Shown here: positions 7,615 to 49,922 of the stretch, piece by piece
Numbering within the stretch: position 1 is the first letter of the stretch
Layout: the number at the start of each line of letters is the position of its first letter
From: Nitrospirota bacterium
GTDB lineage: Bacteria; Nitrospirota; Nitrospiria; Nitrospirales; Nitrospiraceae
Reading direction: 5' to 3'
DNA: 50,875 bases
NCBI GenBank assembly: GCA_016207025.1
Contig: JACQQM010000143.1
Location: 1-50,875, forward strand
The notes under the pieces: generated by a model
What the model was told of the DNA's origin: nothing
Seen by the model: only the letters and a program-made list of their open reading frames with translations
The model's database searches: none
Program-made: the position numbers and the translations under genes

Positions 7615-7677
7615 GGTTTGTCTTGTTCATCTGGTTTGTCTGGTTCAACCAAACAAACGAGAGAAACGAGACAAACC
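7615..7677. repeat. Long-armed inverted repeat, GTTTGTCTGGTT family, copy 1 (ffh-rpsP gap)
   Basis: The arms 7615-7645 and 7647-7677 are each 31 nt and pair at about 26 of 31 positions, with a single base between them. The left arm carries repeats of GGTTTGTCTGGTT-like words, and the right arm their complement (AACCAAACAAAC). It lies between ffh and the rpsP ribosome site. Two further copies are found inside reading frames at 45661 and 49230. Confidence 0.85.
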
Positions 7678-7707
7678 AAATAAACTCAATAGAAAGGAGA
7701 CTGAGCA

Positions 7708-16832: not shown

Positions 16833-16920
16833 AATGATGAATGATGAATGATGAGTGCTGAACGCTCAGCGCTGAACAGTTATTCTTCCACTCATCATTC
16901 ATCACTCAACGTTCATCGTT
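16833..16920. repeat. Long-armed inverted repeat, AATGATGAACG family, copy 1
   Basis: The left arm (16833-16858) is three tandem AATGATG words plus GAGTG. The right arm (16889-16920) is CACTCATCATTCATCACTCA followed by ACGTTCATCGTT, largely complementary. The centre holds a nested palindrome, GAACGCTCAGCGCTGAAC. The right arm encodes the last codons and the stop of the minus-strand helix-hairpin-helix gene. Copy 2 lies at 48035-48193. Confidence 0.8.
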
Positions 16921-38616: not shown

Positions 38617-39072
38617 ATGATGATGGACAGCGGAGAGATCCGAGCGACGCTTCCCCACCGATATCCTTTTCTTCTCGTCGACCGCATCCGGGAGCTCGAA
38701 GCGGGGCGACGCATCGTGGGAATCAAGAACGTCACCGCCAATGAACCGTTCTTCCAGGGGCACTTCCCGGATCGTCCGATTATGCCGGGCGTGTTGATCA
38801 TCGAGGCGATGGCTCAGGTGGGCGGCGTGCTGGCGTTCAAGTCGTTCCCGCTGGTCGGACGTCCCGTGGTCTATTTGACCGGCGTGGACAACGCTAAGTT
38901 TCGAAAGCCGGTCGTGCCGGGTGATCAGCTCCGTTTCGAGGTAGAGGTGCTCAAGCGGCGCCCGCCGTTCTGGAAGATGCAGGCCAAGGCGTACGTGGAG
39001 TCAGACCTGGTCTGCGAGGCCGAGCTGACCGCAATGGTGACGGAGGAAAAGAGCGAACATCGTGAACCGTGA
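38617..39072 (+). CDS. fabZ: 3-hydroxyacyl-ACP dehydratase FabZ
   Basis: FabZ dehydrates beta-hydroxyacyl-ACP in fatty acid elongation and competes with LpxA for 3-hydroxymyristoyl-ACP. This explains its place among lipid A genes. The 151-residue hot-dog-fold protein shows LPHRYPFLLVDRI, FFQGHFPDRPIMPGVLIIEA (catalytic His and Glu) and MAQVGGVLAF. Its last residues (SEHREP) are encoded by the first words of the adjacent inverted repeat, so the C-terminus seems repeat-derived. Confidence 0.95.
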   Translation: MMMDSGEIRATLPHRYPFLLVDRIRELEAGRRIVGIKNVTANEPFFQGHFPDRPIMPGVLIIEAMAQVGGVLAFKSFPLVGRPVVYLTGVDNAKFRKPVVPGDQLRFEVEVLKRRPPFWKMQAKAYVESDLVCEAELTAMVTEEKSEHREP

Positions 39073-39135
39073 ATCGTTAAACGTGGGTCCAGAAGGTAGA
39101 TAGACTCGACCGATTAACGAGTAACGATTCACGTG
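39061..39135. repeat. Inverted repeat (GTGAATCGTTA word family), fabZ-lpxA gap
   Basis: The left arm (39061-39082, with CGTGAACCGTGAATCGTTAA) and the right arm (39111-39135, CGATTAACGAGTAACGATTC then ACG) are complementary through CGTGAATCGTTA. The left arm overlaps the last codons and stop of fabZ. The right arm ends 3 nt before the lpxA ATG, so it also covers the lpxA ribosome-site region. Confidence 0.7.
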
Positions 39136-39137
39136 TC

Positions 39138-39965
39138 ATGTCAGTCTGGAGGGAACGAGTGCAGATTCATCCGACCGCAGTGGTCCATCCGAAAGCCGAA
39201 CTGGGTCAGGACGTGGAGATCGGCCCCTTCTCGGTCGTGGGCGAGCATGTGAAGATCGGACGCGGGACCCGCCTGCTCTCCCATGTCTACGTGGAGGGGT
39301 GGACCGAGATCGGGGAGCGCTGCCAGCTTTACCCCTATGCCTCCATCGGCACACCGCCCCAGCATCTGCAGTACAAGGGGGAGCCGACCCGCGTGGTCAT
39401 CGGCCACGACAACATCCTGCGGGAATACGTCACGGTAAACCGGGGCACGGTGCTCGGGGGCGGCGTGACGACGATCGGCCATCATAATTTTCTGATGGCC
39501 TATGTCCACGTGGCCCATGATTGTCACCTGGGGAGCCATCTCATCATGGCCAACGCGGCCACCTTGGCGGGACATATCTCGATCGGCGATCACGCGATCA
39601 TCGGGGGACTGGTGGGCATCCACCAATTCGTGCGCGTGGGCGCCTACGTGATGATCGGAGGGTGCTCGGCGGTGGGGCGGGATGTGCCTCCGTTTATGCG
39701 CGCCGCGGGAGGCTACCGGGCGCGGCTGTACGGGGTGAATTCCGTGGGGCTCAAGCGGCACGGGTTTTCGAACGAACGCATCGCGGTGCTGAAGCGGGCC
39801 TACGAGGCGTTGTTCCGGTCTGGCCACCGGATGGCCGAGGCGATCAAACGCGCCAAGGATGAATTCAAGGACAGCGCCGATGTGCTGGAGGTCTTGGCCT
39901 TTCTGGAAGGGTCCAAGCGCGGCGTCTGCCGGTCGGTCGGGAAGGATCTGGAGGACGAGGACTAG
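39138..39965 (+). CDS. lpxA: Acyl-ACP--UDP-N-acetylglucosamine O-acyltransferase LpxA
   Basis: LpxA performs the first step of lipid A synthesis, moving a 3-hydroxyacyl chain from ACP to UDP-GlcNAc. The 275-residue protein is a left-handed beta-helix of hexapeptide repeats (IHPTAVVHPKAELGQDVEIG onward) with a helical C-terminal domain. The catalytic His lies in YVHVAHDCHLG. The hydrocarbon-ruler region reads VMIGGCSAVGRDVPP, keeping the Gly that in E. coli favours a 14-carbon chain. ATG 39138 directly follows a repeat arm, and no clear ribosome site is visible. lpxI follows after 2 nt. Confidence 0.95.
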   Translation: MSVWRERVQIHPTAVVHPKAELGQDVEIGPFSVVGEHVKIGRGTRLLSHVYVEGWTEIGERCQLYPYASIGTPPQHLQYKGEPTRVVIGHDNILREYVTVNRGTVLGGGVTTIGHHNFLMAYVHVAHDCHLGSHLIMANAATLAGHISIGDHAIIGGLVGIHQFVRVGAYVMIGGCSAVGRDVPPFMRAAGGYRARLYGVNSVGLKRHGFSNERIAVLKRAYEALFRSGHRMAEAIKRAKDEFKDSADVLEVLAFLEGSKRGVCRSVGKDLEDED

Positions 39966-45553: not shown

Positions 45554-46960
45554 ATGTGGTATCTCGCCTATAATATAGCGTTGCTTCTGGCATCCCCGTT
45601 CATCCTCCTGATCCTGCTGGCCAAGAAACGCTGCCGGCGTGGTCTCCCTGAGCGACTCGGTCTATTTGGTTTGCCTGGTTTATCTGGTTTGTCTGGTTTA
45701 TTTGGTTCACAACCAGATGAACGAGAGAAACCAAACAAACCAGACAACCCGGTCATTTGGGTGCACGCCGTGTCGCTCGGCGAGGTGGTTGCGGCCGTGC
45801 CGCTGGTGCGCAAACTGCACGCGCGATACCCGGGGTATCGGATTGTGGTCTCGACGGTCACCGAGACCGGCCGCGAAGCGGTGGAGCAGAGACTCGCGGG
45901 CGTAGCCGAACATTGCTATGCGCCGTTGGATTTTCCGTGGGTCGTCTCGCGGGTCGCGGATCGCCTCAATCCGATTCTCTTTCTCTTCCTCGAGACCGAG
46001 CTGTGGCCCAACTTACTCAGGACGCTCTCCAGGCGGGGCGTGGCGACCATTCTGGTGAACGGCCGCCTGTCGTCGAGTTCCTTCCGGGGGTACAGGTTGG
46101 TGAGATCCTTTTGGAGGACGGTGCTGGAGACCGTCACGCTCTGCTTGATGCAGTCCGAGAGGGACGCCGAGCGGATGATCAAGCTTGGCGCTGCGCCCGC
46201 GCGCGTGCTGCTGACCGGGAACATCAAATTCGATCAGCCGCTGCCGAATGAAGCAAGCGGGGCGAATACTCTGTCGCGTCGGATGATTGCAGTGGCGGAG
46301 GATGAAGAACTGATCGTGGCCGGCAGCACGCATCCGGGCGAGGAGGAACAACTCCTGACGTGCTACCAAATTCTGCATTGCGAATTTCCTTCACTGGTTC
46401 TCTTGCTTGCGCCCCGGCACATTGAACGGGCGACCGAGGTCGAAGCTGCGGTAAGGGCACGGGGGCTGCTGGCCATCCGGCGCAGCACGCTCGGACAACA
46501 CGGCGCCGACTCGCTGCCGCATGGCACTCCCAGGGTGGTCATCCTGGACACGCGCGGGGAACTGGCCGTCGCCTATCGCCATGCGGTCCTCTCGTTCGTC
46601 GGCGGCACGCTGATTCCGGTCGGGGGCCATAACCTCCTGGAGCCGTCGGTCTGGGGCAAGCCCGTGTTCTTCGGGCCGTACACCGATCACTGCGCAGAAG
46701 TGGCGGACCTTCTGAAACGGGCCGGCGGTGGGATGCAGGTCCGTGATGGGGAGGAGCTGGCCGCCGAAATGGCGAGGCGGCTTCGGGATCGCCCGGCCCT
46801 TCGGCGCATGGGCGAGGCGGCTCGAACCGTGGTGACTGAAAACCAGGGGGCGGTTGAGCGGGGTCTTGGGCTGATCGGGAACGTGCTCAGGAACCGGAAT
46901 GCCGACACCGCGGTTCACGACGCTGCTGCCGCTCGCCAGGCGCTCGCCGCCAAATCGTAA
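45554..46960 (+). CDS. waaA: Kdo transferase WaaA (KdtA) with a repeat-encoded insert
   Basis: WaaA transfers Kdo from CMP-Kdo to the lipid A precursor. The 468-residue GT30 protein starts with a membrane anchor (YLAYNIALLLASPFILLILL) and RRGLPERLG. The GT core contains VIWVHAVSLGEVVAAVPLVR, VVSTVTETGRE, FLFLETELWPNLL, SFRGYRLVRSFW, TGNIKFDQPLP, VAGSTHPGEEE and FVGGTLIPVGGHNLLEPSVW. Between the anchor and the core, residues about 37-66 are encoded by an inverted repeat (GLPGLSGLSGLFGSQPDERE, then KPNKPD) and do not look like WaaA sequence. At about 468 residues the protein is longer than the usual ~420. It starts 7 nt after the DUF374 gene. Confidence 0.93.
   Translation: MWYLAYNIALLLASPFILLILLAKKRCRRGLPERLGLFGLPGLSGLSGLFGSQPDEREKPNKPDNPVIWVHAVSLGEVVAAVPLVRKLHARYPGYRIVVSTVTETGREAVEQRLAGVAEHCYAPLDFPWVVSRVADRLNPILFLFLETELWPNLLRTLSRRGVATILVNGRLSSSSFRGYRLVRSFWRTVLETVTLCLMQSERDAERMIKLGAAPARVLLTGNIKFDQPLPNEASGANTLSRRMIAVAEDEELIVAGSTHPGEEEQLLTCYQILHCEFPSLVLLLAPRHIERATEVEAAVRARGLLAIRRSTLGQHGADSLPHGTPRVVILDTRGELAVAYRHAVLSFVGGTLIPVGGHNLLEPSVWGKPVFFGPYTDHCAEVADLLKRAGGGMQVRDGEELAAEMARRLRDRPALRRMGEAARTVVTENQGAVERGLGLIGNVLRNRNADTAVHDAAAARQALAAKS
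45661..45750. repeat. Inverted repeat, GTTTGTCTGGTT family, copy 2 (inside waaA frame)
   Basis: The inner arms 45686-45707 and 45729-45750 pair at 20 of 22 positions around a 21-nt centre. The left side is extended by further TTTGGTTTGCCTGGTTTATC-like words from 45661. The whole element lies in frame within waaA and adds about 30 residues rich in Gly-Leu-Ser, then Lys-Pro-Asn. It carries no stop in that frame, a condition for insertion into a coding region. Confidence 0.88.
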
Positions 46961-46993: not shown

Positions 46994-48049
46994 ATGCCGT
47001 GGGCCCGATGGCCGCTTTTGACGCTGGCCTTTCCCTACGGCCTTGCGGTCAGAACGCGGGCTTGGTTGTATGAGCAGGGCTGGCTGCCGAGGCGGAGGCT
47101 CCCCTGTCGTGTGGTGAGCGTGGGCAATCTGACGGTCGGGGGGACCGGCAAGACACCGGTCGTGATCTGGATCGCGGAATGGCTCCTGGCCCGCGGCAAG
47201 CGAGTCGGCGTGCTCAGCCGAGGGTATCGCCGACAAAGCCGGGCGCCTCGGCTGTTAGTCTCTAACGGCCGGGCGGTCCTGGCGGGACCGGCTGAGGCGG
47301 GGGATGAGCCGTACCTGATCGCGCGGCGATGTCCCGGCGCGGTGGTTGCCGTCGGCGCGGATCGCTATCAGCTCGGCCGATGGGTCCTGGAGCAGTTTCC
47401 CATTGATTGCTTCATGCTGGATGATGGATTCCAGCATCTGGCCCTGCACCGGGATGTGAATTTGTTGCTGGTGGATGCCTCGGATCGGGCGGGCCTGCAA
47501 GCACTGTTGCCGGCCGGCCGCCTGAGGGAACCGCTCACGGCCGCAGCCCGCGCGGCGGCGCTGGTCGTGACGCGCGCCGACGCAGCTGCCGACCTGGACG
47601 CAATCATGGCCCCGATCAGGGCGGCGACCGGCAGGGATATCCGGCCGATCCTGGTCCGGTTTACAGCGGAAGGGTTCGTGGACATACGCACCGGGGAAGC
47701 CGTGGAGGTGGGACGCGTCTCGGGAATGACGGCCGTGGCCTTCAGCGGTATCGCCAATGCGGCCTCGTTCCGAACCTTGCTGGCCAGCCTTGGAGCGAAG
47801 GTCCTTGATGAACTGGTCTTTCCGGATCATCACGCGTACACCGCCGCCGACCTGAACGAGGTCGGGCGGCGGGCCAGGGGATGCGGAGCGGAGATGGTCG
47901 TGACGACCGAAAAGGATGCCGGAAAGGTTGCGTCACTGCTCGGTTCGGATGACGAGGGACATCGAATACTGGCGTTGCGTCTCGGGACCGAGGTCATGGA
48001 TGGTCGAGAACGGCTGGAACGTCTCCTGCTCGGAAATGATGAACGATGA
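46994..48049 (+). CDS. lpxK: Tetraacyldisaccharide 4'-kinase LpxK
   Basis: LpxK phosphorylates the 4' position of the lipid A disaccharide at the inner membrane. The 351-residue protein has an N-terminal amphipathic anchor (WPLLTLAFPYGLAVRTRAWL), the Walker A region SVGNLTVGGTGKTPVVIWI, VGVLSRGYRR, GDEPYLIARR, FMLDDGFQHLALHRDVNLLL, LLPAGRLREP and FSGIANAASF. ATG 46994 follows GAAGGGG; a GTG at 46964 would add ten residues. The C-terminus ends in NDER, encoded by the left arm of an inverted repeat, exactly as in the helix-hairpin-helix protein at 16906. Confidence 0.93.
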   Translation: MPWARWPLLTLAFPYGLAVRTRAWLYEQGWLPRRRLPCRVVSVGNLTVGGTGKTPVVIWIAEWLLARGKRVGVLSRGYRRQSRAPRLLVSNGRAVLAGPAEAGDEPYLIARRCPGAVVAVGADRYQLGRWVLEQFPIDCFMLDDGFQHLALHRDVNLLLVDASDRAGLQALLPAGRLREPLTAAARAAALVVTRADAAADLDAIMAPIRAATGRDIRPILVRFTAEGFVDIRTGEAVEVGRVSGMTAVAFSGIANAASFRTLLASLGAKVLDELVFPDHHAYTAADLNEVGRRARGCGAEMVVTTEKDAGKVASLLGSDDEGHRILALRLGTEVMDGRERLERLLLGNDER

Positions 48050-48193
48050 ACGCTGATCGCTGAATGACGAAAGTGAACAGATGGAGCAGCTACAAGGCAA
48101 AGCGGTGGAGGGTGAAGACGGAATGATGAATGGTGAGAGTGAGGTTCGTGGTTCTGCCTCCCCGATTCATCATTCATCGCTCAGCGTTCTGCG
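48035..48193. repeat. Inverted repeat, AATGATGAACG family, copy 2 (lpxK-waaF boundary)
   Basis: The left arm (48035-48068, AATGATGAACGATGAACGCT plus GATCGCTGAATGA) and the right arm (about 48163-48193, ATTCATCATTCATCGCTCAG then CGTT) are complementary, with about 95 nt between them. The left arm holds the last codons and stop of lpxK. The right arm lies inside the waaF reading frame and encodes IHHSSLSVL. A third partial word (GAATGATGAATGG) at 48121 holds the chosen waaF start. Confidence 0.75.
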
Positions 48194-49922
48194 CTCCGCT
48201 AAGAGACTGCTCGTGCGGGGGCCCAACTGGATCGGCGACGCCGTCATGAGCGAGCCCGCGCTGACCGCGCTGCGCGGGCTGTTCCCGACCGCCGAGATCA
48301 CCTTGCTGGTCAAGCCGGCGATTGCGGAATTGATGACCGGCCACCCAGCGCTCGACCGAATTGTGGTCTATCAAGACCGGAAACGGCATGCCGGGCTCAC
48401 CGGGAAGTGGGCCTTGGCGAGGGATCTGCGCCGCCTGCGGTTCGATCTCGCGGTTCTCTTTCAGAACGCCTTTGAAGCAGCCGTGCTGGTGTTCCTGACC
48501 GGGATTCCTCGCCGCTACGGGTATGCCACGGACGGGCGGGGGCTGCTCCTGACCGATCCGGTCGCGGTGCCGGATCGAGCGAAGATCGAACATCAGGTCC
48601 AGTATTATCTGAACCTGCTCCGGCCGTTGGGCGCCGGCGAGCGGGCCGGCTTGCCCCGCCTGTTCCTCTCGGATGAGGAAGTGCGGGCGATAGAACGGAG
48701 ATTGGCCGAAGCCGGCATCGGCCAGTCCGATTTCGTTGTGGGCCTCAATCCGGGGTCCACGTACGGGAACGCCAAGCGATGGCTGCCGGAACGGTTTGCC
48801 GAGACAGCTGACCGTCTGGTTCGGGTACAGGGCTCGCGCGGCGGGCGAGGGGCGCGCGTCGTCATCGTCGGCGCGCAGGGCGAGGAGGCGCTGGCGCGCA
48901 GCATCGCGGACCGGATGCAGGCCAAGCCGGTCGTGCTGTCCGGACAGACCTCCATCCGGGAACTGATGGCCGCGGTCAAGCGCTGCGGGCTGTTCCTCAC
49001 CAACGACACGGGGCCGATGCACATCGCCGCTGCGTTCGGGGTGCCGGTGGTGGCCGTCTTCGGCCCGACTGATTCACGCACCACCGCGCCGTTCGGAACC
49101 GGACACACCATCGTCCGCCATTCCGTTGAGTGTTCTCCGTGTCTGCTGCGCGAGTGCCCGATCGATCACCGCTGCATGACACGGGTCACGGTGGATGAGG
49201 TATACGACGCTGCGCTGAAGCAGCTCGCGGGTTCGTTTCGTTTATCTAGTTCTTCTGGTTTGTCTGGTTCGAACCAAACAAACCAAATAAACGAGACAAA
49301 CCGAACAAACGTTTTGAGAAACGTAACGGTTTTTTTAGATCGGGACGGGACCGTGAACCGGGATACCGGCTACGTCAAGACTCCCGAAGAACTGGAGTTG
49401 CTCCCCGGTGTGGTGGAGGCGGTGGCGCGCTTGAAGCGGGCCGGAGCGTGTGTCGTGCTGGTAACGAACCAGTCCGGGGTCGCGCGAGGGTTTCTCACGA
49501 TCGCAGGGCTGGAAGCGATCCATGCCAGACTGCGCGCACTGCTGGAGGCAGGTGGCGCCTGGCTCGATGCGGTGTATTATTGTCCGCACCACCCCGATGA
49601 CGGGTGCCTCTGCCGCAAGCCCCAGACGGCCATGGTGGACCGGGCCATGGCCGACCTGGCGCTTGATCCGTCCGGTGCCGTGTACGTGGTGGGCGACCAG
49701 AAGCGGGACGTGGAGCTGGCTCGTCGGGTCGGCGCGAGAAGCGTGCTGGTGATGTCGGGACCGACGAGCCTGGACGCGATCACGGCCTTGGAAGCGGACG
49801 GACAATTGCCGGATCGCGTGGCGGATGGCCTGGCACAGGCGGTGGACTGGATCATCGAGGACGTCGCGAAGTCGAGGTCCGGCCTGCCATCGGGCCAACG
49901 GTCGTTATTCATGAGGGCCTGA
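48123..49922 (+). CDS. Fusion of heptosyltransferase WaaF and heptose-bisphosphate phosphatase GmhB
   Basis: The 599-residue frame joins two LPS-core activities. Residues about 25-365 are a GT9 heptosyltransferase II: LLVRGPNWIGDAVMSEPALT, GLNPGSTYGNAKRWLPERFA, LTNDTGPMHIAAAFGVPVVA and FGPTDSRTTAPFG. Residues about 400-560 are a HAD phosphatase of the GmhB type: VFLDRDGTVN (Asp-x-Asp), TNQSGVARG, the zinc-loop CPHHPDDGCLCRKP and VGDQKRDVELARRVGA. GmhB removes the 7-phosphate from heptose 1,7-bisphosphate, and WaaF uses the resulting ADP-heptose. The 28-residue joint (about 370-397, Ser/Asn/Thr-rich) is exactly an inverted repeat. ATG 48123 follows GGAGGG; the first ~22 residues are repeat-derived. 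A TTG at 49315 could in principle start GmhB separately. Confidence 0.88.
   Translation: MMNGESEVRGSASPIHHSSLSVLRSAKRLLVRGPNWIGDAVMSEPALTALRGLFPTAEITLLVKPAIAELMTGHPALDRIVVYQDRKRHAGLTGKWALARDLRRLRFDLAVLFQNAFEAAVLVFLTGIPRRYGYATDGRGLLLTDPVAVPDRAKIEHQVQYYLNLLRPLGAGERAGLPRLFLSDEEVRAIERRLAEAGIGQSDFVVGLNPGSTYGNAKRWLPERFAETADRLVRVQGSRGGRGARVVIVGAQGEEALARSIADRMQAKPVVLSGQTSIRELMAAVKRCGLFLTNDTGPMHIAAAFGVPVVAVFGPTDSRTTAPFGTGHTIVRHSVECSPCLLRECPIDHRCMTRVTVDEVYDAALKQLAGSFRLSSSSGLSGSNQTNQINETNRTNVLRNVTVFLDRDGTVNRDTGYVKTPEELELLPGVVEAVARLKRAGACVVLVTNQSGVARGFLTIAGLEAIHARLRALLEAGGAWLDAVYYCPHHPDDGCLCRKPQTAMVDRAMADLALDPSGAVYVVGDQKRDVELARRVGARSVLVMSGPTSLDAITALEADGQLPDRVADGLAQAVDWIIEDVAKSRSGLPSGQRSLFMRA
49230..49311. 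repeat. Inverted repeat, GTTTGTCTGGTT family, copy 3 (waaF-gmhB joint)
   Basis: The arms 49230-49269 and 49272-49311 are each 40 nt, pair at about 31 positions and meet at a central GGTTCGAACC palindrome. The element is read through in frame as a Ser/Gly-rich then Asn/Thr-rich linker between the two enzyme domains. The word content matches the copies at 7615 and 45661. Confidence 0.88.

Follow-up and report, generated by a model that had tools for sequence, protein, structure and literature searches.

Short-unit tandem arrays dispersed between genes are represented among bacteria by the STRR heptamer repeats of cyanobacteria. Rickettsia and Wolbachia provide the best-known coding palindromic repeats, and a few other lineages have cases of REP type. 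The Rickettsia palindromic elements (RPEs) are dispersed elements of 105–146 bp with terminal inverted repeats that lie both between genes and in frame within conserved genes, where they add about 20–50 residues; they have been found in 19 genes, and the RPE-containing gmk is translated and active (PMC2229807). In-frame fusions are also known for the bacterial MITEs, including Correia/NEMIS, ERIC, RUP and YPAL (PMC2229807), and REPs occur in genes of several phyla, sometimes coding for 20–30 residues (PMC3733652). Inverted repeats are likewise retained in coding genes of Nematomorpha mitochondria (PMC6649704).

The repeat described here was found in a 50,875-nucleotide stretch of a Nitrospiraceae draft genome (the window), where one copy lies in frame within waaA, the gene for Kdo transferase (Table 1). 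A preliminary description of this DNA had placed an inverted repeat at about residues 37–66 of WaaA, with the frame left open, and this is borne out: the inner arms (45686–45707 and 45729–45750) are 22 nt long and complementary at 20 positions (91%), longer imperfect arms of 38 nt (45672–45709 and 45718–45755) are 79% complementary, and the intact ORF retains its conserved core motifs. The RNA of positions 45654–45756 folds with -45.5 kcal/mol (z = -6.5), a value equalled by none of 200 shuffles. The word GGTTTGTCTGGTTT, matched with up to 2 mismatches, is found 11 times in the window, where 0.17 occurrences would be expected and no more than two were seen in any of 100 shuffles. Rfam returned no known RNA family for the window. 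The solved Kdo transferase 2xci has 40 residues before the point at which the window WaaA has 65, and in an AlphaFold2 model built with 22 homologues residues 40–59, which lie between helices of high confidence and the first strand of the core, have a pLDDT below 50. The model puts most of the repeat-coded residues in a disordered linker from membrane anchor to catalytic core, in agreement with the position first proposed for the segment.

Table 1. Features of the window related to the repeat (positions in the 50,875-nucleotide stretch).
Feature	Position	Strand	Basis or context
waaA (kdtA), Kdo transferase ORF, 468 aa	45554..46960	+	ORF list; Pfam PF04413 E=4e-64; PDB 2xci E=3e-33
9-bp-unit hairpin array, in frame in waaA, coding about residues 36–66 (GLFGLPGLSGLSGLFGSQPDEREKPNKPDNP)	45659..45750	+	arm pairing, word matches, fold
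Left arm, GGTYTRTYT units read Gly-Leu-Ser/Phe	45659..45707	+	unit consensus
Right arm, inverted units read Lys-Pro-Asn/Asp	45718..45750	+	
Second copy of the element, ffh-rpsP spacer	7615..7685	.	ORF ends 7607, rpsP starts about 7708
Heptosyltransferase (GT9) + GmhB-type HAD phosphatase fusion ORF, 613 aa	48081..49922	+	Pfam; homologues
Third copy, in frame, inter-domain linker of the heptosyltransferase-GmhB fusion (SGLSGSNQTNQINETNRTN)	49230..49310	+	

Both arms of the repeat are arrays of a 9-bp unit with the consensus GGTYTRTYT, derived from 216 internal in-phase units, in which positions 2, 3, 7 and 9 are 94–99% fixed and positions 4, 6 and 8 vary almost only through transitions. Copies mostly span 54 to over 190 bp, differ in unit number between arms, and have no fixed terminus; in Nitrospira moscoviensis some are long tandem arrays in which the opposite arm is short or missing. 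Five copies fold with z-scores of -4.6 to -7.4. For the word counts, shuffles served as the control, since the mirror symmetry of GGTYTRTYT makes a reversed word useless. Arms of the same copy paired better than swapped arms of the same subtype in only 20/44, 72/137 and 8/16 copies, so that arm-to-arm covariation, sought by this comparison, was not found in the three sets, and the hairpin is a by-product of two opposed arrays rather than a stem maintained pair by pair. Because the unit measures 9 bp, gain or loss of whole units never breaks a reading frame. At both genic sites the left arm is read in the Gly-Leu-Ser phase, the flexible and polar frame of the unit, with the right arm read as Lys/Arg-Pro-Asp/Asn in waaA and as Thr-Asn-Gln in the heptosyltransferase-GmhB fusion; the third right-arm phase is closed, because TAA arises whenever unit position 6 is A, as in about half of the units.

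The second copy in the window, placed by the preliminary description in non-coding DNA at 7615–7677, is real and slightly longer, occupying the spacer between ffh and rpsP; the 28 relatives with a readable ffh-rpsP spacer lack the element there. The third copy, in the fusion gene, had been missed. Other hairpins are also present in the window: one at 48041–48196 belongs to another family (GAACGATGAACGCTGATCGC.../...TTCATCATTCATCGCTCAGCGTTC) and spans the lpxK-heptosyltransferase junction, and as the longer N-terminal start of ORF 48081 falls inside it, that start may be wrong; one at 16833–16913 consists of 7-bp units (AATGATG / CATCATT) of a separate unit family; and a spacer hairpin at 39063–39138 (TGAACCGTGAATCGTTAAACGT / ACGAGTAACGATTCACGTGTCA) lies between ORFs 38617–39072 and 39138–39965. 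In other genomes, different short-unit inverted repeats, namely GNAAAGTCN, CAAGCTGACAAG, ATCAGCTATCAGC, CACGCGTCACGC and GGTTAAGGCTGA, occur in the heptosyltransferase-gmhB linker (L191–L212), the ffh-rpsP spacer (L222–L240) and the lpxK-heptosyltransferase spacer (L192/L196/L198). At four loci (L076, L087, L089 and L090) repeat copies adjoin a common motif, AACGGTCTTCTNATGCTGGCGGACTTTTT, that is terminator-like in appearance.

The repeat is a genome-wide family. About 17 clusters are present in the 2.47-Mb host draft genome, and across 175 genomes of the family the two-unit word has between 0 and about 1,200 matches in each genome, although the two word versions overlap at 2 mismatches, so that summed counts overcount. 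The further copies that the preliminary description expected of a dispersed repeat are therefore present, both in the host genome and in its relatives. When 84,980 prokaryote species were scanned for the hairpin pattern, all 80 matches listed were Nitrospira, Nitrospiraceae or Nitrospirota records. The hairpin is present in waaA (L271) of genome G094, which we take to be the closed genome of the isolate N. moscoviensis. In two regions of that genome (C1:2480000–2580000 and 3050000–3330000) the copies form clusters in which one orientation prevails (251 forward, 112 reverse); in most other genomes the orientations are balanced. Clustering of copies near LPS genes was seen in G005 and in the window.

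When in-frame copies were counted, a check proposed in the preliminary description, homology and an open frame assigned 7 of 137 distinct copies to genes, and the remaining 130 were not found in a gene. Because coding sequence makes up most of such a genome, these counts show a strong exclusion of the repeat from genes. All seven genic copies lie at just two sites, both of them inter-domain linkers: waaA (the window, L086, L092 and L101) and the heptosyltransferase-GmhB fusion (the window, L083 and L092). Further open frames across copies were considered as in-frame cases and rejected, since those inspected resembled antisense frames or a leader ahead of an internal start. The earlier suggestion that an open frame explains the tolerance of the insertion is insufficient alone, as copies avoid genes and both coding sites are inter-domain linkers read in the flexible, polar phase.

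WaaA linkers were read from 89 of about 155 family genomes with waaA, most of the sampled genomes being MAGs. Repeat units are present at exactly the point of insertion seen in the window in 44 of the 89 and absent from 45, a ratio that is not a prevalence, because genus g10 and part of g6 were chosen for alignments hinting at longer linkers. Related WaaA sequences thus carry or lack the segment at one exact point, the question put to the proposed alignment, and do not all carry an unrelated segment of the same length there; the segment is not peculiar to the window WaaA, as some version of it is found in about half of the Nitrospiraceae sampled. Linkers free of units mostly have 13–17 residues, up to 22, and are unstructured at the RNA level (median z -0.2), versus a median z of -4.85 in linkers with units, 84% of which fall below -3. 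The median number of word matches is 82 (3–1238) in genomes whose waaA carries the hairpin and 1 (0–215) in the others (p = 7e-12); these counts include the waaA copy itself, which matters only for tiny counts (G028 and G031). On a tree built without the linker, which used just 315 columns of waaA itself, presence follows copy number in about 4 of 7 pairs and almost none run counter to it, the same direction without significance. Four repeat-rich g10 genomes have no hairpin at the waaA site. Losses of the waaA hairpin occur, as four genomes with a non-hairpin linker (G170, G175, G176 and G184) are nested among hairpin carriers. An empty site with cleanly joined flanks is not seen: relatives free of the insert have another linker in its place.

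Two subtypes of the repeat exist, GGTTT and GGTCT, and the subtype found in waaA follows the ratio of subtypes across the same genome (rho 0.82). The subtype has switched at least 10 times on the waaA tree, with 7 of 7 phylogenetically independent pairs in agreement (p = 0.016); the cut-off between C-rich and T-rich genomes used for these pairs was set after the ratios had been seen, a choice on which the rank correlation does not depend. GC mutational bias was considered as a source of the subtypes and rejected, given a rho of 0.12 with GC3 and the sister genomes G014 and G028, which have GC3 of 0.79 and 0.78 and opposite subtypes; their letters are alike at unit position 6 and differ at position 4 almost throughout. 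Linker lengths change in steps of whole units: in genus g10, the length in residues is 0 mod 3 for all 10 T-type linkers and 1 mod 3 for all 8 C-type linkers. The window linker and that of G021 share 90% identity across loop and right arm, with a length difference of 18 bp, or 2 units, and so reflect vertical descent with loss of units. Because T and C linkers of one genus are also unlike in loop design, the switch seems to have replaced the element instead of mutating single positions.

The same coupling reaches the protein. A T-to-C change is silent in the left arm, where it turns a Leu codon from TTR to CTN, and its partner change on the right replaces Lys by Arg; the choice of left-arm Leu codon and of right-arm Lys or Arg is coupled with a rho of 0.90. 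A synonymous change and a Lys/Arg change would not become linked through selection at the protein level, so these residues of the waaA linker are most likely set by repeat turnover and not by protein function.

Taken together, the waaA hairpin is best explained as a copy of a dispersed 9-bp-unit repeat, specific to Nitrospiraceae among the matches listed, that is tolerated in the linker and is inherited, lost or overwritten from the genomic pool, a reading to which we assign a probability of about 0.7. The normal place of the repeat would be between genes, and its two opposed tandem arrays of GGTYTRTYT fold into a long hairpin. In waaA, tolerance probably stems from the position in a linker that may lack order, between the membrane anchor and the first strand of the core, and from the phase, in which the arms read (Gly-Leu-Ser)n on the left and (Lys/Arg-Pro-Asp/Asn)n on the right; the effect of the segment on the enzyme is probably near neutral. 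Once in place, the copy would pass vertically, with occasional loss, and at times may be overwritten through ectopic recombination with, or copying from, other copies in its genome. No donor identical to the waaA copy was identified, and ectopic copying is therefore suggested by the way in which subtypes track the genome.

High copy number, intergenic bias, genome-specific subtypes and presence or absence at one site would be expected of a non-autonomous palindrome of MITE or RAYT/REP type, mobilised by a transposase and inserted many times independently at a preferred site. This is nevertheless unlikely, as unit number per arm varies, termini are not fixed, and clear orthology links some waaA copies of different genera. 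A shared flanking 6-mer occurs in 3.7% of copies against 2.4% in the null, indicating no target-site duplication, although fuzzy boundaries weaken that test, and among 135 copies a GTAG tag lies near an end in 7% and CGTC in 11%, not above unrelated tetramers. RAYT/Y1_Tnp was rejected as the driver on its distribution: the family (PF01797) is absent from the element-rich genomes G004, G023, G094, G130 and G015 and present in the element-free G012, G032, G022 and G079. The description of the element as a mobile or copying repeat holds for its dispersal, but mobility of the transposon type is not supported, with no target-site duplication, fixed ends or matching RAYT distribution. A selected RNA or DNA signal, acting within the lipid-A/LPS operon in mRNA processing, stability or pausing with coding incidental, would accord with the strong fold of unit-bearing waaA linkers, the near-invariance of four unit positions with almost only transitions at three others, and the clustering of copies near LPS genes in G005 and the window. 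It too is improbable, because half of the sampled genomes have no hairpin at the waaA site, the swapped-arm comparison gives no sign of pair-by-pair selection, and Rfam offers no match.

The two subtypes could instead have arisen by lateral exchange of waaA alleles among Nitrospira lineages rather than by copying within genomes, and C-type linkers do share loop architecture across genera (LSRRPD; 73% identity between G028 and G031) as well as length class. The waaA flanks, however, group by genus (G031 with G021 at 100/99 support, G014 with G028 at 99/98), so that only the linker differs, and exchange would leave the coupling of subtype to the genome-wide ratio unexplained; this account is somewhat less probable still. 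Ordinary drift or slippage of a low-complexity linker with no tie to a dispersed repeat fits a disordered linker of variable length, but is already refuted by the word copies across the genome, the coupling of codons and amino acids between arms, and the tracking of subtypes. A broader, and doubtful, proposal is that opposed arrays of a short degenerate unit form a repeat class by architecture, rewritten at fixed sites while unrelated unit families swap. In different Nitrospiraceae, GGTYTRTYT, GNAAAGTCN, TCAGCTNT-like and CACGCGT-like families apparently replace each other at one linker or spacer. In relatives, the other hairpins of the ffh-rpsP spacer have only moderate folds, with z mostly 0 to -3, which makes family swapping at one site a lead rather than a result, and a GAAAGTC-type family reaches at most 5 exact matches per genome, so its dispersal is weak. 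If true, such a class would imply a new copying or templated-writing process aimed at existing hairpins.

The Nitrospira-type nitrifiers, which are free-living and ecologically central, offer such a repeat at a fixed site of an essential gene, where it occurs naturally in dozens of states (absent, short, long and two subtypes). The coupling between the coding copy and the genomic pool gives a direct handle on the genome-wide homogenisation of small bacterial repeats, and suggests that amino acids of an essential enzyme can be set by repeat turnover in place of protein selection. The 89 waaA genes form a data set ready for use.

The Nitrospira-type repeat of a 9-letter unit is previously undescribed; a search of the open literature returned no paper describing the element or its words as a repeat, and one N. 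moscoviensis paper that counts palindromes generally. The palindromes of Nematomorpha are perfect and code for conserved protein, whereas the Nitrospiraceae arms are degenerate and code for an expendable linker. In comparison with STRR, the unit is 9 bp long and the arrays usually form inverted pairs. The repeat resembles the Correia/NEMIS, ERIC, RUP and YPAL MITEs as a stem-loop of about 100 bp, but has no defined terminal inverted repeats and no target-site duplication, and no cognate transposase was identified. It is extragenic, palindromic and multicopy with a shared consensus, as REPs in the broad sense are, and like the GTAG-/CGTC-tagged REPs it is short, mostly intergenic, present in many copies and sometimes coding; it differs from the latter in having neither tag nor RAYT link, in measuring 55–190 bp in place of 20–40 bp, and in its 9-bp subunits. 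In waaA it lies in frame in a conserved gene and is missing from orthologues at the same point (44 with and 45 without, of 89), which is what marks a protein-coding palindrome. With the Rickettsia and Wolbachia palindromic elements it shares palindromic form, dispersal, and location both between genes and in frame in conserved genes; it is set apart from RPEs by description, as an array of 9-bp units of no fixed length or ends, with two genic sites seen, in another phylum. Without the hallmarks of REPs and MITEs, the repeat works in the manner of the RPE/WPE-type coding palindromes.
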